From contig JAJDZJ010000124.1 in the NCBI GenBank assembly GCA_022824685.1, positions 1 through 52,018 of the forward strand: a DNA stretch of 52,018 bases, given 5' to 3'. Origin of the DNA: Caldilineaceae bacterium (GTDB lineage: Bacteria; Chloroflexota; Anaerolineae; Caldilineales; Caldilineaceae). Numbering within the stretch: the stretch's first letter is position 1; each line of letters begins with the position of its first letter. Both the position numbers and the translations under genes were made by a program. The notes beneath the pieces are model-generated. The model did not search any database, was not told the DNA's origin, and was given only the letters and a program-made list of their open reading frames with translations. Below are positions 13,459 through 41,630 of the stretch, in pieces.

Positions 13459-13755
13459 CGATGCCAACATCTGAACATGAAAGACTTTGAACCGGAATAG
13501 TAGCGCTCAAAGCGGGCTCCAGAGAGTCTCGGGTTGGTGGAAACGGGATAGCGGCGCCGAGCGTGAATGGGCCGGGGAGTTGGACAGCGAACAGTGGACT
13601 GATGGTCGTTCCCGGGCTGGTCTGCCAGCCGCAGGATAAGTACACCACTTAGTAGCCGGTCACGGAGACGCCACCGTTACCAGGGCGCTGCGGTCCAACC
13701 TGAACCCTTTTGAATGGGGTCGGTCGTCCGCGATGAGTGAGACTGGTGCAGGCAG

Positions 13756-13783
13756 CCCTTGCGTTTCATGCAAGGGTTTTTTT
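13756..13783 (+). terminator. Hairpin with U7 tail inside the T-box leader (stem III position)
   Basis: CCCTTGC and GCAAGGG form a perfect 7-pair stem with a 7-base loop, followed directly by seven T residues (13777-13783). It lies where T-box stem III is expected, just before the antiterminator. By itself it looks like an intrinsic terminator. Confidence 0.5.
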
Positions 13784-13835
13784 GATTACTGTCGTATGCC
13801 GGTCTAATTAGGGTGGCACCGCGGGCGTCTGTCCA

Positions 13836-13891
13836 GACCTCGTCCCCGAAAGCAGAGCGGATTCTCTGTGATCGGAGACGGGGTCTTTTTG
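13836..13891 (+). terminator. T-box regulated terminator
   Basis: GACCTCGTCCCCGA (13836-13849) pairs with TCGGAGACGGGGTC (13872-13885), with one mismatch and one G-U pair, followed by TTTTT. The hairpin follows the T-box core closely and is the expected competitor of the antiterminator. Confidence 0.85.
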
Positions 13892-31000: not shown

Positions 31001-31816
31001 TCAGCCGGACTCGCCCTGTGTCTGGTGGCTGCCCGTTGCGAGCTGCTCGGCGAGGCTGCGCACAGCTTCGAGCCCTTCCCCGGATCCGGCAGCCTTTACC
31101 AGGGCAGAACCGACGACTACCCCTTGCGCGATATTGGCCACTCGTGCGGCCTGACTGCCTGTGCTGATGCCGAAGCCGACCGCGAGGGGCAGGTCGGTGT
31201 GGCGACGGACCCGTTCGACGAAAGCTGGCAGGCCCGGCGGCAGTTCATCACGCGCGCCGGTGATACCGGTAACGCTGACGAGATAGATGAACCCGGTGGT
31301 ATGGCGGGCCACAGATTTGATGCGTTCTTCGGTGCTGGTGGGGGCCAGCATATAAACTGTTGCCAGACCGGCCGCGCGGCAGGCAGGCTCCAGCATTTCA
31401 GATTCTCCTGGCGGCAGATCGGGGACGATCAGGCCATCCATGCCGGCATCGGCTGCAGCCTCGACGAACCGTTCTTCGCCGAAGGCCAGAATCGGGTTGT
31501 AGTAACTCATTGCGCAGAAGGGCGTTTCGACGCCCCGGTCTCGCAGCTCGCGTGACATCTGCAGGCAGTCGGCCACGGTCGTGCCGCCAACGAGGGCAGA
31601 GAATGTGGCCGTCTGGATGGTCGGTCCGTCGGCAAGCGGATCACTGTGGGGGATGCCGAATTCGATAATGTCCGCGCCGGCTTTCGCCAGGGCGGCGACG
31701 ACCTCGACAGATTCCTGTCGGGTCGGGTAGCCCATGGCATGATAGGGCATAAACGCGGCGCCGCCACTCTTTTTCAGGTCTCGAAAGACCTGATCAATGC
31801 GATCTACTCCGTTCAT
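31001..31816 (-). CDS. trpA: Tryptophan synthase alpha chain
   Basis: A 271-residue TIM-barrel subunit that releases indole from indole-3-glycerol phosphate. The catalytic pair Glu52 ([11 protein letters not shown]) and Asp63 (LADGPTIQ) is present, and the [18 protein letters not shown] segment is typical. AGGTGAGAG precedes the ATG. It is the last gene of the leftward aromatic operon, 29 bases after trpB, and it is separated from trpEGDCF, which lie in the other operon. Confidence 0.95.
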
Positions 31817-31845
31817 CTCTCACCTCGCGCCCAGAGCTGGCCCAT

Positions 31846-33096
<1,251 letters not shown>

Positions 33097-33139
33097 CAGT
33101 TCCTCGCAGTGGGTCTGGCGACGGAGGCGCAACCGTCCG

Positions 33140-34075
33140 TCATCTACGCTCGAAGATGATATTTGTAGCCTGCTGCATAACAGAGACCGGCGCGGCTTCG
33201 CCGGTCCACTTTTCCCAGGCGATGGCGCCCTGGTATACGAGCATTCCGAGGCCCCCGATGGGTGTCGCGCCATCGGTGGATGCCAACTGCAGCATGCGCG
33301 TCATGGCCGGGTTGTAGACCAGGTCATAGACGATCTGATCCTCGCGAAATTCGACGTTTTCCTCCCAGGGAAGCCCTTCGATGCGGGGCTCCATGCCCAG
33401 CGACGTACAGTTTACGATCAGGTCGGCGTCCTGGGCGCTGCGGGTTACGTCGTCGGGGAAGGCGGTGCCGCTAATCCTGATTTGCGGGAAGTAGGACTGC
33501 ATGGTCGCCGCCAGATCCACAGCCTTCGGGACGGTACGGTTGAGGATGGCGACGCTGTGCACGCCTGCCTCGGCGAGCCCGTAGACCACCGCCCTGGCGG
33601 AACCGCCGGCTCCGATCACGAGCGCGCGCTTCTGGGCGGGGTCGACATCGTGCGCGTGCAGATCGGCGATGAAGCCGGCGCCGTCCGTATTGTCGCCGGT
33701 CAGCTGGCCATCTTCTTCGACAACAATCGTATTGACTGCGCCTATCGCTTCGGCCGCGGCGGTCCAGTTTTGCAGATGCGGCATGACAGCCTGCTTATGG
33801 GGGACGGTCACGTTTACGCCTCTCAGCCCGAGGGCCGGCAACGAGGCGACCGCTGCCGGCACGCGTTCCGGGGGCACAGGGAAGGCCAGGTAGCGCCAGT
33901 TCATTTGGCGGGCGACGAAGGCGGCGTTGTGCATCTGCGGGCTGATCGAATGGGTGACGGGCCACCCCAACAGGCCGACGAGCGTTGTCGCCGCGTTGAT
34001 GTCGGTCGGGAACAGCTCTGAATCGGCTGCCGAGGCCGGCGGCGCGACTGCTTTGGGCTGCTGGGGATCACGCAT
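33140..34075 (-). CDS. aroE: Shikimate dehydrogenase
   Basis: A 311-residue NADP-dependent enzyme that reduces dehydroshikimate. The substrate site is [16 protein letters not shown]; the catalytic Lys94 (VTVPHKQ) and Asp131 (GDNTDGAG) are present, and [10 protein letters not shown] is the cofactor loop. ATG 34075 overlaps the end of aroA by 8 bases, which implies coupled translation. The first 30 residues are a Pro/Ala-rich extension not usual for the family. Together with aroKB and aroQ this completes the middle of the pathway. Confidence 0.94.
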
Positions 34076-35399
34076 TTTCGTCTGCCCAATCGATCTCTTG
34101 CACGTCAACGTTGAGCGCGCGCAGCGTCGATTCGAAGCCGGGAAAGCTGTCGGCGGTAACGTGCGCGTTATGGATGGTCGTCTCGCCGCCGGCGATCACA
34201 CCGGCCACGGCCAGTGCCATCGCCAACCGATGGTCGCCGTGGCTGTCGACGGCCGCGCCGGTGAGCCGGGTGGGTCCATCCACGATGAACCCGTCGGCGG
34301 TCTCCTGAATCTGCGCCCCCATCTTTTTGAGCTCGGAGACGGTGGTGGCGATGCGGTCGGTCTCCTTAACGCGGAGCTCCTGGGCATCCCGCACAACGGT
34401 GCGGCCCTCGGCCTGGGTGGCTGCCACGGCCAGGACCGGCAGCTCGTCGATCATGGTTACAAGTTGCTCGCCCCCGAAATCAAGGCCTTTCAGACCGCCG
34501 CCGCTGACGATCAGATCGGCCACGGGCTCACCGCCCTGCAGGGGCCGCTCTCTACGCCGAATATTGGCGCCCATCTCTGACAGAGCGTCTACGATGCCGG
34601 TACGGGTTGCGTTGACGCCCACATCTACGATCGTCAGATTGCTGTCCGGCAAGGCGGAAGCGCCAACCAGGAGAAATGCGGCCGAGGAGATATCGCCTGG
34701 GATCAGAATGTTCAGTGGTTCCAGCGGGGACTGAGGACGTTCGCTGTGGGTCGTATTGCCCAGAGCGGAGACCGGCGCGCCCATCGAGTTCAGCATGCGT
34801 TCAGTGTGGTCGCGGGCAGGGCCCGGCTGGTGCACGACGGTCAGCCCATGGGCGTACAGGCCTGCCAGGAGGATGCAGCTCTTGACCTGGGCGCTGGCGA
34901 CCGGCATCTCGTATTCGATGGCGGAGAGGCGGGAAGGCACAATCGTAAGGGGCGCGTAGCGGCCGCCTTGTCGTCCGAAGATCTGCGCGCCCATCGTGCG
35001 CAGCGGGTCGACGATCCGGGCCATGGGGCGGCCGCGGATTTGGGACGTTCCACTGAGAACGCTAACGAACTCCTGACCAGCCAGCAGCCCTGCGAGAAGA
35101 CGCATGGTCGTGCCGCTGTTGTCGCAGTCCAGCACGTCGCCAGGCTCTTGCAGGCCATCGAGGCCGACGCCATGGACCTCCAGTCGGGTCCTGCTGATTT
35201 CATCGATGCGCACACCCATGGCCCGCATGATGTTCATGGTTGCCCGACAGTCATGGCCATCCAGGAAGTTGCGGATGTGAGAGGAGCCCTCGGCGATCGA
35301 ACCGAAGATCACGGACCGATGGCTGATGGACTTATCTCCGGGCACGCTGCAGCGGCCGATGAGGGGACAATTGTTTCTGATCTTGAGGATGTCTGCCAT
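34068..35399 (-). CDS. aroA: 3-phosphoshikimate 1-carboxyvinyltransferase (EPSP synthase)
   Basis: A 443-residue enzyme that joins PEP to shikimate 3-phosphate. VPGDKSISHRS carries Lys23, DNSGTTMRLLAG is the PEP-site loop, and QELRVKETDR is the C-terminal domain motif. The NSGTT loop is like that of Bacillus-type enzymes rather than the NAGTA loop of E. coli. GGAAAT precedes the ATG weakly. The 121-base gap from tyrA has no evident promoter or terminator. Confidence 0.95.
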   Translation of the reverse strand: MADILKIRNNCPLIGRCSVPGDKSISHRSVIFGSIAEGSSHIRNFLDGHDCRATMNIMRAMGVRIDEISRTRLEVHGVGLDGLQEPGDVLDCDNSGTTMRLLAGLLAGQEFVSVLSGTSQIRGRPMARIVDPLRTMGAQIFGRQGGRYAPLTIVPSRLSAIEYEMPVASAQVKSCILLAGLYAHGLTVVHQPGPARDHTERMLNSMGAPVSALGNTTHSERPQSPLEPLNILIPGDISSAAFLLVGASALPDSNLTIVDVGVNATRTGIVDALSEMGANIRRRERPLQGGEPVADLIVSGGGLKGLDFGGEQLVTMIDELPVLAVAATQAEGRTVVRDAQELRVKETDRIATTVSELKKMGAQIQETADGFIVDGPTRLTGAAVDSHGDHRLAMALAVAGVIAGGETTIHNAHVTADSFPGFESTLRALNVDVQEIDWADENA

Positions 35400-35520
35400 T
35401 TGATTTCCGGGTCGTTAAAGGACGGTTGGACCTTCAGAAAACTCGTGTGGCGCGCCTGTGATGTGCCTGCTTACCCCATGCGAACGCGTTTGCAGTTTGT
35501 GAATTTTGCAGGAGGCCAGC

Positions 35521-36420
35521 TCAGTTGCTGGCCTGTGAGGCAGTTCCCCGTTTTGAGGGTTTCCAGGCGGCACGGGCCTCCTGGGAGCAGGAGAGCTTGG
35601 TTTGCAGGGCGTCTTCATCGTCTTGCGCCAGAAGCGTTCGCAGCTCCAAAAGATGGTCGTTCAGCGTGTCCAACTGCGACAGAACGGCATCGCGGTTGGT
35701 CACCAGAATGTCCAGAAACATCTGTGTATCGCTTGCGGCCACCCTGCTGGTATCGCGAAAGCCGCCGGCGGCCAGTTCCCAGACGGCGTCATCAGTTTTT
35801 CCGCTATCATTGACAGTGTGGACAAGAGCGCTCGCCAGTAGAAAGGGCAGGTGGCTGATGGCGGCAACCAGCCGGTCATGGCGGGCGGGCTGCATTGTGA
35901 TGGGCGTTGCGCCGATGGCCAGCGCGAGTTCGGTGGCCAGGGAGACTGTTTCCGCGGTCGTGCGCGGCAGGGGCGTGAGGACCCAGGGCGCGCCCTCGTA
36001 CAGTCCACTTTCGGCGGCGGCGTAACCGGCCGTTTCTTTACCGGTCATTGGATGGCCGCCGATGGGCTGCACGGTGGCGGGCAGCCTGTCCATTGCGGCG
36101 CAGATTTCGGCTTTCGTGCTGCCCATGTCCATGACGACCGTGCCCGGCCACAGGATTGGACCGAGCGTTTCCAACATCCGTACGACAGCACGCACGGGCG
36201 TGGACAGGATCACGATATCAGCGCCGGCGACACCTGAACTGAGATCGGTTGTCGCCAGGTCGACGGCGTTCTCGTGAAAGGCGCGCAGGATGGTCGTGAA
36301 GTTGCGGGTGACTCCACGCACTTCACGACAGAGATTGCGCTGTTTCAGGTCGAGGCAGAGGCTCGTCCCCATCAGACCGAGCCCAATGACCGCGACACTG
36401 CATTCAGAAAGAGATTTCAT
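35521..36420 (-). CDS. tyrA: Prephenate dehydrogenase
   Basis: A 299-residue NAD(P)-dependent enzyme that turns prephenate into 4-hydroxyphenylpyruvate for Tyr. The Rossmann motif GLGLMG is at residues 13-18, MDMGSTK and GGHPMTGKE are substrate-site motifs, and the helical dimer domain follows. No ACT domain is present, so feedback control by Tyr is not obvious at protein level. An arogenate dehydrogenase activity cannot be excluded. Confidence 0.92.
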   Translation of the reverse strand: MKSLSECSVAVIGLGLMGTSLCLDLKQRNLCREVRGVTRNFTTILRAFHENAVDLATTDLSSGVAGADIVILSTPVRAVVRMLETLGPILWPGTVVMDMGSTKAEICAAMDRLPATVQPIGGHPMTGKETAGYAAAESGLYEGAPWVLTPLPRTTAETVSLATELALAIGATPITMQPARHDRLVAAISHLPFLLASALVHTVNDSGKTDDAVWELAAGGFRDTSRVAASDTQMFLDILVTNRDAVLSQLDTLNDHLLELRTLLAQDDEDALQTKLSCSQEARAAWKPSKRGTASQASN

Positions 36421-36510
36421 TCTTGTTCGGTGACGCCCGCATGGTTGTCCTGTTTGTGGGCAGGCCCGTCTGATTCGCTGGCAGGACGCGCCGTATGCAA
36501 AAACAGAGAC

Positions 36511-37527
36511 TCAGAGATTCCGTCCGACGGCATTCGCGACGTCCTTCAACTCCTTCATCAGGCTGCCGAAACGCTCGAAAGTCAGACTTTGGGCGCCGTC
36601 GCTCCAGGCTTTGGACGGGTTTGGATGCACTTCGATCATGAGGGCATCGGCCCCCGCGGCGACCGCGGCCTTTGCGACCGGCGCCACGTACTCCCACTGG
36701 CCCGTGCCGTGCGCCGGGTCGGCCACGACGGGCAGGTGGGTGAGTTGCTTCAAGACCGGGATCGCATTGATATCGAAGGTGTTGCGGGTGGCGGTTTCGT
36801 AGGTCCTGATGCCGCGTTCACAGACCATAACCTGCATGTTCCCATTGCTGAGAATGTACTCAGCGCCCATCAGCAGCTCTTGAATCGTACCGCTGATGCC
36901 GCGTTTCAGGAATACAGGCTTGCTGGTTTTGCCCACCGCCTTCAGGAGCGGGTAATTCTGGTTGTTGCGGGCGCCGATCTGGAAAATATCCGTATAGTCG
37001 CCGACCAGCTCGATATCCTCCGAACTCATGACTTCGGTGATGATCGGGAGGCCGGTCTGCTCTCTGGCCTCCGCCAGATATTTGAGGCCCTCTTCGCCCA
37101 ACCCCTGGAAGCTGTAAGGGCTGCTGCGCGGCTTGAAAGCGCCTCCTCGCAGAACGGAGCCGCCGGCCTCCTTGACGGCGTGGGCAGTCTCCAGGATTTG
37201 CTCCCGGCTTTCCACGCTGCATGGCCCGGCCATGACTACAACTCTCTCACCGCCAACACTGATTCCGTTTACAGGGATGGCCGTCGAAGACTGGACAAAG
37301 TCACGGCTGGCGTACTTGTAGGGCTGCATGATGCGGACCGTTTTTTCCACCCCGTCGAGAACCTCGAAGGTGTCCTGTTGGATCAGATAGTCGTCGGCGC
37401 CGATGATGCCGACAATTGTGCGGGCTTCGCCGCGGCTAAGGTGCACTTTGTAGCCAAGCTCTTCCACTCGCTGGACGACGCTCTCAACCTGTTCTTGTGA
37501 AGCATGTTGTTTCATTACGACGATCAT
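36511..37527 (-). CDS. aroF: 3-deoxy-7-phosphoheptulonate synthase (DAHP synthase), copy 2
   Basis: A 338-residue type I-beta DAHP synthase, first step of the shikimate pathway. An N-terminal ferredoxin-like regulatory domain (about residues 1-70, [18 protein letters not shown]) precedes the barrel, which has [38 protein letters not shown] and [11 protein letters not shown]. This domain layout is that of the Thermotoga enzyme, whose N-terminal domain binds Phe or Tyr. ATG 37527 follows AAGGAAGGAAC. It is a tandem paralogue of the next gene upstream. Confidence 0.95.
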
Positions 37528-37631
37528 GGTTCTGTTCCTTCCTTGATTCGCTGCGCATCTCAATTTTCGACGAAAAATATGATTTCTGTTTCAACATGGT
37601 TCTCTGTCATGCCCGAAGCGGGTAGGGACTC

Positions 37632-38729
37632 TCAGGCCAATACGACCCCCTTTTCTCTTTCCGCTCCATCCGGTTCTTTCGCGTCGTCGGCGGAGGCAGT
37701 TACACCGGCAGGCGAGGCGATGGAGCGGCCGATGGCCTTGGCAACTCTTCGCAGGCCGTGCATCAGGTCCGCGAACCGTTCTGGTTTAAGGCTTTGGTCG
37801 CCGTCGCTCAACGCGGACTCGGGATCAAGGTGAACCTCAAGGATGAGCGCATCGGCGCCGGCCGCGACGGCTGCTAGAGACATCGGGGGCACGAGCTCCC
37901 AATCGCCGGTGCCATGGGCGGGATCAGCCACGACAGGCAGGTGTGATGCCCGTTTCAGTACGGGGATGGCGTTGAGGTCGAAGGTGTTGCGGGTCGCTGT
38001 TTCGTAGGTACGGATGCCGCGCTCGCACAGCATCACCTGCATGTTGCCATTGCTCAAAATATATTCAGCGCACATCAGGAGCTCCTGGATCTCGCCGCTG
38101 ATTCCGCGCTTGAGCATCACCGGGCGGTTCGTTTTGCCTACCTCTTTGAGAAGGCCGTAATTCTGCATATTGCGGGCGCCGATTTGCAGGATATCCACGT
38201 ATTCGGCCACCAGGTCGATGGTCTCGACGGTCATCACTTCGGAGATGACGGGCAGTCCGGTGATTTCACGAGCTTCGGCCAGGTATTTGAGCCCTTCTTC
38301 GCCAAGCCCCTGGAAGCTGTAGGGGCTTGTCCGGGGCTTGAAGGCACCGCCGCGCAGGACTGACGCCCCGGCCTCTTTGACCGCGATGGCGGACTGGATG
38401 ATCTGTTCCCGGCTCTCCACGCTACAGGGTCCAGCCATGACGACGACCTGGTCCCCGCCGAAACGGACGCCGCCCACGTCGATCGTGGTGCCGTCAGGGT
38501 TGGTGGTTCGGCTGGCCAGCTTGAAGGGATCCTGGATGCGGACAGTTCTGAGCACGCCCGCCATGGCATCAAACGTCTGGCGCCGAACCTGCGTCAGGTC
38601 TCCGATGAGGGCGATGACGGTATGGTTTTCGCCATGGATTGGTTGGGTTTGGGCGCCCATGGAGGCTGCACGGCTGAGAACATGCTCGATCTCGGCTGCG
38701 GTCGCCTGAGGTTTCATTACGATGACCAT
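37632..38729 (-). CDS. aroF: 3-deoxy-7-phosphoheptulonate synthase (DAHP synthase), copy 1
   Basis: A 365-residue type I-beta DAHP synthase with the same domains as copy 2: N-terminal regulatory domain, [36 protein letters not shown] and [11 protein letters not shown]. It is clearly a tandem duplicate; the barrels are nearly superimposable, while the N-terminal domains differ much more. It has a C-terminal tail of about 25 charged residues not found in copy 2. ATG 38729 follows TTGGAG at 6 bases. Confidence 0.95.
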
Positions 38730-38840
38730 TCTATACTCCAATTTGATGATGGCGTTCTCTGCTTAAGCACAGACCTTAATTTGTCGAAAATTTACGATAG
38801 GGTCTGTCAGTATGGCGTGAGGTCGAAGGCTGAATGGACA

Positions 38841-39698
<858 letters not shown>

Positions 39699-39769: not shown

Positions 39770-40195
39770 TCAGGACCGGTTTTCCAGCTGTTCATCGATC
39801 CACTGATTCAGTTCGTCCAGATCGATTTCGGTTGCCAGGCTCTTGTCCGGGCGCAGAGCTTGGGCTTCTTTCAGATAGACATGCTGAATGTCTTTTTGGG
39901 GCGTAGCGGTGTTCCAATGGATCATCACGCGAATACAGTTTGGCACACTGTCGGGAACGCCCATTTCATGTCCGCACAGAAGCGGCACATCCATCCAACC
40001 CAGCTGGCGAGCGGCGAACGCGGGATATTGGCTGACCACGTCAAGTGTTGTGGTGAAGATTGCGCTGGCAACGTCACCAGGATCGATATTGTTGAGACGA
40101 ATCATAAAGGCCAACAGTTCGCGGGTCGCACGCAGGATCTCTTCAGGCGTATCGTTTTCAATTGTTGTTGCGCCACGCACTCCTCTACAGATCAC
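39770..40195 (-). CDS. aroH: Chorismate mutase, AroH type
   Basis: A 141-residue monofunctional chorismate mutase of the Bacillus AroH fold, making prephenate. The active-site residues correspond well: Arg7 in RGVRGATT, Glu77, Arg89 in CIRVM and Tyr107 in HVYLKEAQ. I chose GTG 40195 with AGGGAGAA upstream, because the family begins VIxRGxRGATT; the frame is open further upstream but passes through the leader terminator. It is the first structural gene after the leader attenuator. Confidence 0.94.
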
Positions 40196-40326
40196 GGGAT
40201 TCTCCCTGTATGGCCGGCGCGGCTGCCTCGGGGTGGTCGAAGCAGTCCGCGGCGTTATCGATGTTTCTCCCAATTGGCACTCTTGAATTGAGCAAGTATC
40301 GGTTGCACAAATTCCCTTTCTCCAAC

Positions 40327-40357
40327 AAAAAAAGCGTGGAGTTTGTCTCCACGCCTT
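40327..40357 (-). terminator. Intrinsic terminator between the aromatic leader ORF and aroH
   Basis: On the minus strand GCGTGGAG-ACAAA-CTCCACGC is a perfect 8-pair hairpin followed by seven T residues. AAG/TTT pairing can extend the stem to 11. It lies 24 bases after the leader stop codon and about 130 bases before aroH. No clear second promoter is seen between it and aroH, so transcripts must read through it to express the operon. Confidence 0.88.
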
Positions 40358-40486
40358 GAGAGTTCTTACGTCGACTGCCCTTACACAGCCCAACGCTCCT
40401 CAACCAGCGGAGACGGTTGGCTCACGCCAAAATAATAGCCAAACCAGAAGTTGCCAAAAGAAAACCCGCGCCATTCATGGCGCAGG
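40346..40486 (-). promoter_or_regulatory. Candidate ribosome-mediated attenuator structures
   Basis: Minus-strand RNA can form: (a) a 9-pair hairpin, CCUGCGCCA with UGGCGCGGG (40486-40465), enclosing the first Trp codon; (b) a hairpin CCAAC...GUUGG with inner CUCC/GGAG (40420-40390); (c) an alternative 7-pair helix between UCUCCGC (40413-40407) and GUGGAGA (40352-40346), which takes the 5' arm of the terminator. Pairings b and c are exclusive because both use UCUCC; c and the terminator are exclusive because both use the terminator arm. A ribosome stalled at Tyr-Tyr-Phe would cover the CCAAC arm and favour c. Confidence 0.5.
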
Positions 40487-40611
40487 TTGTTGGTCAGCAG
40501 CATCTCCGCGGCGGTCGGACCGTCCAACAGGTTGATTGGCAGAAGGGAATCGTCCTCGTTACGAATCAGGTCAGCGATTGTTACCGGCGCTTCGCGTCTT
40601 TCAGTTTTCAC
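40381..40611 (-). CDS. Aromatic-rich leader peptide of the aroH-trpA operon
   Basis: A 76-codon frame from GTG 40611, with AGGAAGA 9 bases upstream, to TAA at 40381. I do not recognise it as a protein family. Residues 47-61 read [15 protein letters not shown]: nine aromatics (2 Trp, 5 Phe, 2 Tyr) in fifteen codons at 40473-40429. The frame ends just before an intrinsic terminator and lies between a good promoter and an operon that makes Trp, Phe and Tyr. The best reading is a leader peptide whose translation controls termination. At 76 codons it is long for a leader. It could instead be a small functional protein. An ATG at 40503 would give 40 codons but has no spaced ribosome binding site. 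Confidence 0.6.
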
Positions 40612-40669
40612 TCTGTCGAATCTTCCTCGTTGGAGAGCGATTACGCATCTGTCTCGCACATTGGAGGCA

Positions 40670-40698
40670 AGGCTATCACATCGAAAACAGGTTGTCAA
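40670..40698 (-). promoter_or_regulatory. SigA promoter of the leftward aromatic operon
   Basis: On the minus strand, a perfect -35 TTGACA (40698-40693), a 17-base spacer ending in TGA (an extended -10 TGn) and -10 TAGCCT (40675-40670). Transcription from about 40663 gives a 50-base untranslated stretch before the leader GTG at 40611. Confidence 0.7.
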
Positions 40699-41630
40699 TT
40701 CCGCCGAAGCCAGAATCACAGTTTGCGGCGGTCGGATGCGCTTGAATGCTGCCAGAGACAGAACCAATTAATCCGCGAAGTCACGCGAAGGGTCGCGAAG
40801 AACACCCTATTATCCGTGGAGGGACGCGGAGGACGCCAAAGACGTAGTGAATTTTCTTTGCGCAGTTGCGCCGCCCTTCAATGACCAGCCGCAATTTACA
40901 CTCGGAAGTCGTTGTTCAGACGAACGTCAGTGAGCCCTAGTCGGGGCCAGGAGGTAGGCGGTAGAAGCATTCGGCCGACAGGACGCCTATCAGGAATCGT
41001 CGGGAATGAATTGCGACATGCACGCAAGAATGTCCAACGATAGAGCGAATGGTGGGCCTGCGCGCAAATGTGATGGGCGCGCACGCGGTTGTGGACGCGG
41101 GCAGGAAATGGCGCAGGCCAGGGCGCCAATGCCCTGCGGCGGTGGGGCGAGCGGGTGGGGGAGCGGGAGTTCGGAGGGGCCCCCGGCCCGGCGGCAAACA
41201 GGCGCCGCCGGGGATAGCCGCAAGGCCACCCGGTCCTGGCACTGCCCCGCCCCGTGGATGGGAGACTTGGGGGCAGGCGGCGAGTGATGGCATAGGCGTG
41301 CGGCGGCGCGCGAGAAGGGCGGGGCGCGGAGGGGCCACCGACACATGGCAAGGCGTCAAAGTGGCAGGGTGGGGGTTGGGGGAGGCCCAGGACTGCAGGG
41401 GTTAGGGGCGAGGGGTTAGGGATTTGCTGCCGCGATGGGGGGCCTGGTGAATGGGGAACGGACCAGGCGCCGGTCTTGCGTATCGGAATCTGTTCCCCGA
41501 CAATAAGGGCGAACGCTAATCCTTTTATTGTCAGTTGCATCAGGGGTCCTCGGTTTGGCCTTAGGGCAAGTTTGCGCGGCAGGCGCGCGATGTCCGTTTG
41601 CGGACCGATCACTTTTCCGGGAGGAAATCC
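40699..41630. other. Intergenic region without a convincing gene
   Basis: About 930 bases between the leftward aromatic operon promoter and the rightward SDR gene. Apart from the decamer repeats it is very GC-rich, especially 41090-41440, with G-runs and low-complexity composition. The open frames here are Pro/Arg/Gly-rich on both strands, without ribosome binding sites or recognisable domains, so I call none. Confidence 0.55.
40774..40834. repeat. Decamer-spaced CGCGAAG repeats
   Basis: CGCGAAG occurs at 40774, 40784 and 40794, exactly 10 bases apart. A degenerate second block of GGAG-ending decamers follows at about 40814-40834. The array lies about 75 bases upstream of the -35 of the aromatic operon. 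Similar decamer runs are common intergenic elements in many bacteria, so function is uncertain. Confidence 0.6.

Follow-up and report, generated by a model that had tools for sequence, protein, structure and literature searches.

Does the short open reading frame (ORF) that precedes aroH in a Caldilineaceae genome (Chloroflexota) act as the leader of a transcription attenuator, and, if so, which amino acids does it sense? We consider this question for a stretch of 52,018 nucleotides, hereafter called the window, and for homologous loci in related genomes. Our answer is that the aroH leader is very probably a classic ribosome-mediated transcription attenuator, whose sensor consists of mixed Phe and Tyr codons, here together with Trp codons.

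Leader, terminator and operon

The basic elements of the locus, all on the minus strand, are as follows.

40670..40698, minus strand: promoter TTGACA-17-TAGCCT, with TGTGA before the -10 (from sequence and the corresponding site in homologous loci); the hexamers are TTGACA at 40698-40693 and TAGCCT at 40675-40670, separated by a 17-base spacer
40381..40611, minus strand: leader peptide ORF of 76 codons, from GTG at 40611 to TAA at 40383-40381 (sequence and homologues)
40429..40473, minus strand: aromatic run, residues 47-61, with the sensor codons 5 Phe, 2 Trp and 2 Tyr (sequence and homologues)
40327..40357, minus strand: intrinsic terminator, with an 11-pair perfect stem at 40357-40331 and U7 at 40333-40327 (sequence)
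39773..40195, minus strand: aroH, chorismate mutase, the first gene of the operon (TIGR01796, 132 bits)
31001..39698, minus strand: the remaining operon, pheA, aroF, aroF, tyrA, aroA, aroE, trpB and trpA (NCBIfam; order kept in relatives)

These elements agree with the original prediction, which had named the promoter, nine aromatic codons in fifteen within a 76-codon frame (found at 40473-40429), a stop codon followed by a perfect hairpin with U7, and an operon running from aroH to trpA. The stem of the hairpin begins 23 nt past the leader stop, and NCBIfam matches bear out the gene list. The promoter, in the form TTGACA-16/18-TAnnnT, is kept ahead of the leader in 49 of 50 homologous loci. 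GAGGAAG lies upstream of the GTG at 40611, and codon conservation together with the pN/pS ratio suggests that the leader ORF is translated.

The operon after the leader, aroH-pheA-aroF-aroF-tyrA-aroA-aroE-trpB-trpA, in which both aroF genes encode DAHP synthases according to NCBIfam, makes products that lead to Phe, Tyr and part of Trp synthesis. This order is retained in Caldilineaceae relatives as far as the contigs reach; in some genomes of the family, pheA stands immediately after the leader or there is a single aroF. As separate observations on operon content (loci L110 and L122), G011 has a tandem pair of pheA-like genes and G036 has two trpA-like genes.

To estimate how often such an arrangement arises by chance, we scanned both strands for stretches of 15 codons with at least 7 aromatic ones that are followed by a stop within 60 codons and by a strong terminator. 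In the 52 kb window, exactly one site was found, the aroH leader. In 1.25 Mb of fetched sequence, all 32 of 32 matches were aroH leaders, five of them being overlapping alternative frames at leader sites already counted; the chance rates thus refer to the window and the fetched loci rather than to a whole genome. The aromatic runs that appear in another frame in some homologues were set aside as a by-product of the leader DNA itself.

The gap between the leader stop and aroH is about 185 nt and contains the terminator, and a sequence scan of the interval between the terminator and aroH found no promoter-like site. This spacing also bears on the idea that the leader boosts aroH translation by ribosome reinitiation and does not control termination. 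Reinitiation has been proposed for bacterial leader genes generally (PMC4833913); here, a terminator with T7 and about 185 nt separate the leader stop from aroH, and we consider this explanation extremely improbable.

Predicted antiterminator

An attenuator needs more than a terminator, and it is at this point that the analysis goes beyond the original prediction, from which the antiterminator was absent. The codons next to the aromatic run on its 3' side can pair with the 5' arm and loop of the terminator.

40407..40414, minus strand: antiterminator 5' arm GUCUCCGC, within the coding sequence directly past the run (complementarity and folding)
40345..40352, minus strand: antiterminator 3' arm GUGGAGAC, overlapping the 5' arm and loop of the terminator (complementarity and folding)

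In other lineages, the arms differ in sequence yet still pair: CGUCUCC with GGAGACG, UCGCCAUCC with GGAAUGGCGA, GUCGCUCC with GGAGCGAC, and GGACCGC with GCGGUCC. When each leader was compared with shuffled versions of itself, the complementarity gave a combined Fisher p of about 3e-11 over 20 representatives, and a second sample gave a combined p of 2e-13 over 21 families; both values ignore phylogeny. Individual tests gave p values between 0.003 and 0.67, and the complementarity is weak in family f28 (p 0.11-0.67). For Caldilineaceae, a gap of 2-13 nt usually separates the last aromatic codon from the arm, and one of 18-36 nt separates the stop from the terminator. The homologue alignments that the original prediction had proposed as a check show that the aromatic run, the stop and the terminator are kept with compensatory changes, and that the antiterminator is kept as well.

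When the window RNA was folded as it stands before synthesis of the terminator 3' arm, placing the ribosome on the last aromatic codon gave -31.0 kcal/mol and 10 antiterminator pairs, and placing it on the stop gave -3.0 kcal/mol. Once complete, the transcript nearly always prefers the terminator, also with a stalled ribosome (p(term) 0.97 here), so the choice of antitermination would have to be kinetic. The comparisons point to an antiterminator that would exclude the terminator and would remain accessible while a ribosome is stalled at the sensor codons, with the weak case of f28 noted above. As far as sequence comparison can decide, we regard this pairing as the decisive evidence for an attenuator.

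The mechanism that we infer is as follows. When charged tRNA is ample, the leading ribosome would clear the run and reach the stop, where it would cover the region between the antiterminator arms; the terminator 23 nt downstream would then form, and RNA polymerase would halt before aroH. If, instead, charged tRNA-Phe, tRNA-Tyr or tRNA-Trp were scarce, the ribosome would stall in the run and leave GUCUCCGC free to pair with GUGGAGAC in the terminator 5' arm, and the polymerase would read into the operon. In most Caldilineaceae, a terminator-like hairpin before the run probably pauses the polymerase until the ribosome arrives, which would give a synchronous start.

Hairpin ahead of the sensor codons

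This additional hairpin, which we call P, lies inside the leader ORF.

40463..40488, minus strand: P hairpin AACCUGCGCCA-UGAA-UGGCGCGGGUU, terminator-like (prediction and covariation)
40456..40464, minus strand: U-tract of the P hairpin, UUUUCUUUU, encoding Phe-Ser-Phe of the run (third positions frozen)

The P stem has 9-11 pairs, is followed directly by 8 U in 9, and is predicted to be terminator-like. It is present in 15 Caldilineaceae genera and in one f15 genome, and f24 and f33 have a P hairpin with the U-tract UUUUAUUU, which encodes Phe-Tyr-Phe; most other families are without it. Over 29 sequences, 96.9% of the cells are paired and 13 cells are changed on both sides; none of 500 shuffles was as good on these measures, and slid versions fail. 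In addition, GGG-TTT-TCT-TTT is frozen at third positions in the leaders that bear the hairpin, and lineages that lack it write the same Phe-Ser-Phe as TTC-TCG-TTT.

Pausing of RNA polymerase is well established as the synchroniser of trp attenuation (PMC1183508), and by analogy P is probably the synchronising element that attenuation models require, sited before the sensor codons. Alternatively, P may be a true second terminator, at which untranslated leaders end, so that the operon would need a close ribosome slowed at the aromatic codons. The long stem with its U-rich tract, the covariation, and the frozen third positions with their different spelling where the hairpin is missing would all suit such a role; on the other hand, its absence from most other families indicates that the basic switch does not need it, and pausing has a well-established part in synchronising trp attenuation. 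We therefore treat the second-terminator reading as possible though rather doubtful; it extends the attenuator explanation rather than opposing it.

A protector or pause hairpin of the 1:2 type, in which the aromatic codons pair with the region after them (GGUUUGGC/GCCAACC), can be drawn by inspection in the window's genus. None was seen outside that genus, and the 1:2 hairpin was dropped as evidence.

N-terminal half of the leader

The part of the leader that precedes P and the run shows a different kind of conservation.

40492..40545, minus strand: N-terminal segment of 18 residues, with conservation at the amino-acid level and free third positions in five genera (codon table, pN/pS and alignment)

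The pattern LLPIxLLDGPTAxExLL is kept in g1, g7 and g15 and more loosely in g2 and g9, while its third positions vary freely, and pN/pS over the segment is 0.29. Outside these five genera the N-terminus is unconserved, and leaders there go down to 25 codons. The original prediction had called the length of the leader atypical; this holds in Caldilineaceae, where the long form is an elaboration, but not elsewhere in the phylum, where leaders are often 25-35 codons long. It had also named a non-aromatic protein conserved as amino acids over its whole length in the homologues as the pattern that would speak against an attenuator. Such conservation is seen in the N-terminal half in five genera, and it does not extend throughout.

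Judging from the codon comparison, selection on the N-terminal amino acids exceeds the needs of plain attenuation, and this is unusual for an attenuator leader. A nascent-chain effect and a role in trans are possibilities, the latter by analogy with peTrpL, a leader peptide that acts in trans (PMC7298713). The same segment raises the question of whether the leader is a functional small protein, the terminator being an ordinary one between two genes. Purifying selection on LLPIxLLDGPTAxE (pN/pS 0.29, free third positions) and the peTrpL precedent (PMC7298713) would fit this explanation, but a conserved N-terminus in five genera only, with leaders as short as 25 codons elsewhere, does not, and the antiterminator pairing would be left unexplained. 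Moreover, the leader peptide has no Pfam or NCBIfam match, and its AlphaFold model is of low confidence (pLDDT 58.5, pTM 0.21) and gives no sign of a folded protein. We consider a small protein in place of an attenuator to be very unlikely; as an additional role in the window's genus, a small-protein function could exist beside attenuation.

Combining these features, one may tentatively picture an attenuator with two checkpoints: a translation-sensitive terminator with a U-tract made of sensor codons (UUU-UCU-UUU or UUU-UAU-UUU), then the mixed run, the in-frame antiterminator arm and the second terminator. In this scheme, a close-following ribosome stalled at the aromatic codons would be needed, and in five genera the N-terminal nascent peptide would be involved. 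As a whole, we hold this scheme to be less than probable.

Amino acids probably sensed

Returning to the attenuator reading, we counted the aromatic residues in the runs of 39 lineages. The runs contain 127 Phe, 119 Tyr and 23 Trp (269 in total); Tyr occurs in 39 of the 39 lineages, Phe in 38 and Trp in 23, and one family has a Tyr-only run, YYYYYYY. The aromatic identity swaps between lineages while the density is maintained, which fits the sensing of tRNA and is unlike a protein. The 23 Trp codons compare with 1.1 expected under selection for Phe and Tyr only, an excess of about 20-fold (phylogeny ignored), although Trp is rarer than its share among the aromatics in the window's proteins.

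The idea that Trp codons in the run go together with trpBA in the operon was considered and rejected: genus g16 has no Trp codon in its run though the operon has trpBA, and G027 is the reverse, with a Trp codon in the run and no trpBA match within the 12.8 kb fetched.

Could the attenuator nevertheless answer to Phe alone, the Tyr and Trp codons being passengers? Among the residues of the runs, Phe ranks first (127 of 269), and a precedent exists in Corynebacterium glutamicum aroR: despite its Phe-Tyr-Phe codons, this leader is reported to respond to Phe limitation and not to Tyr availability (PMC11802643). However, Tyr is found in every lineage and comes close to Phe in number (119 of 269), the run of one family consists of Tyr only, and Trp exceeds the Phe/Tyr-only expectation (23 against 1.1, about 20-fold with phylogeny ignored), though it stays below the level of aromatic equivalence. 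We judge the Phe-only reading unlikely. Taken at the level of codon content, the mixed sensor is real, with Phe and Tyr as the core signal and Trp as a frequent extra, and control by three amino acids is likely in only part of the phylum. The original prediction that shortage of any of the three would release the terminator is thus borne out only in part, Phe and Tyr codons being essentially universal and Trp codons confined to 23 of 39 lineages.

Distribution in Caldilineaceae and Chloroflexota

The combination of leader, run, stop and terminator was found in 16 of 17 Caldilineaceae genera; in the 17th (G019, 85% complete), no aroH was found. Profile searches over the family gave strong leader matches in most Caldilineaceae genomes, and in g16 (a Caldilinea-like genus) and G021, which the first profile missed, direct reading found the leader upstream of aroH. 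In other families, weak profile matches proved to be real short leaders before aroH, such as MTRGAFSFSYFWFYGYF... and MCSSRVAYWFYFYSG..., with a terminator after each. Some weak matches were rejected: those in G230, G330, G281 and G316 are not leaders, and the one in G086 (L109) arose by chance and lies opposite another gene.

For the phylum as a whole, aroH loci were chosen regardless of leaders, and the 400 nt before aroH were scanned. An ORF with an aromatic run and a terminator was present at 41 of 57 Chloroflexota loci; since these loci were the highest-scoring aroH matches, this figure describes a sample and not a census. The controls gave 0 of 57 on the reverse strand, 1 of 57 in downstream sequence and 1 of 285 in shuffled sequence. 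The positive loci come from many families of the class to which Caldilineaceae belongs and also from families outside it (f69, f104). In family f74 of Chloroflexota, aroH is present and an aromatic leader was found at 0 of 10 loci (L199-L201, L203-L205, L211, L219, L221, L226); six of these ten loci were scanned against Rfam and contained no Rfam element.

As a side observation, the leaders L157, L158, L159 and L099-L102 (f53, f4, f36 and genus g16) begin within -1 to 8 nt of the transcription start predicted for them, and these mRNAs may therefore be leaderless.

Comparison with known systems

Multivalent attenuators are known from the ilvGMEDA and thr leaders, which, like the aroH leader, carry codons for more than one amino acid that the operon makes or is linked to; they differ from it in using branched-chain or Thr/Ile codons and in belonging to gammaproteobacteria. 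The E. coli trpL and pheL leaders share with the aroH leader an ORF of sensor codons, mutually exclusive antiterminator and terminator, a U-tract and a biosynthetic operon (for the trp anatomy, see PMC1183508). They are single-amino-acid sensors, whereas the run described here mixes Phe, Tyr and Trp; unlike in trpL and pheL, its antiterminator arm lies within the ORF, between the run and the stop, and, in place of a 1:2 hairpin, its synchronising hairpin, where present, is separate and stands before the run.

Two further leaders concern the aromatic pathway. According to PMC11802643 and PMC4046766, the AroR leader of C. glutamicum aroF (Neshat et al. 2014) resembles the aroH leader in its aromatic-pathway operon, its Phe and Tyr codons and its transcription attenuation; as described there, it differs in having only Phe-Tyr-Phe, with no mention of Trp, a DAHP-synthase operon and an actinobacterial host. 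The uORFC-13-1 motif before aroF of Acholeplasma is likewise a predicted upstream ORF with a terminator, in which a U run encodes Phe (PMC8632094); by its description, it is a prediction with at least one Phe codon, confined to Acholeplasma and unassigned environmental sequences (PMC8632094).

For a long time, descriptions of leader-peptide attenuators came from Proteobacteria and Actinobacteria only, with Firmicutes added later (PMC2965389), and the leader models that a 2013 survey could use covered just His, Leu, Thr and Trp (PMC3766115). In the region 40180-40760, no Rfam family matched, including the Trp, His, Leu and Thr leader models and the T-box. The original prediction knew of no such leader in Chloroflexi, and our full-text searches of an open-access library likewise found no report of a leader-peptide attenuator in this phylum. 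The principle of ribosome-mediated attenuation is known, and the aroH leader is apparently undescribed in Chloroflexota. From known leaders it differs by its mixed run of three amino acids, by an antiterminator arm that is read in frame, by a separate hairpin that covaries and precedes the sensor, and by its occurrence before aroH across the phylum.

The window also contains trpE, at about 14 kb, and here the sensor is of another type.

13478-13850, plus strand: T-box preceding trpE (RF00230; 88.6 bits and E 8e-20, slightly short of the gathering score, 93)

T-boxes, like the attenuator, sense tRNA charging, but they read the tRNA directly, without translation. The specifier of this T-box is apparently UGG, by reading of the alignment, and T-boxes before trpE are already known in Dehalococcoides (PMC2494555). 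With trpE under a T-box and the aroH operon under an attenuator, the Trp branch and the common, Phe and Tyr operon use different RNA sensors here, a division of control that is clear in this genome.

Taken across the phylum, the comparisons argue for an attenuator that would be conserved through much of Chloroflexota and would control the whole aromatic pathway by a mixed Phe/Tyr(/Trp) sensor. Its leaders form a natural series with mixed codons, in which the reading of several tRNAs by one switch may be tested, and the inner hairpin offers a test of whether polymerase and ribosome need a synchronised start.
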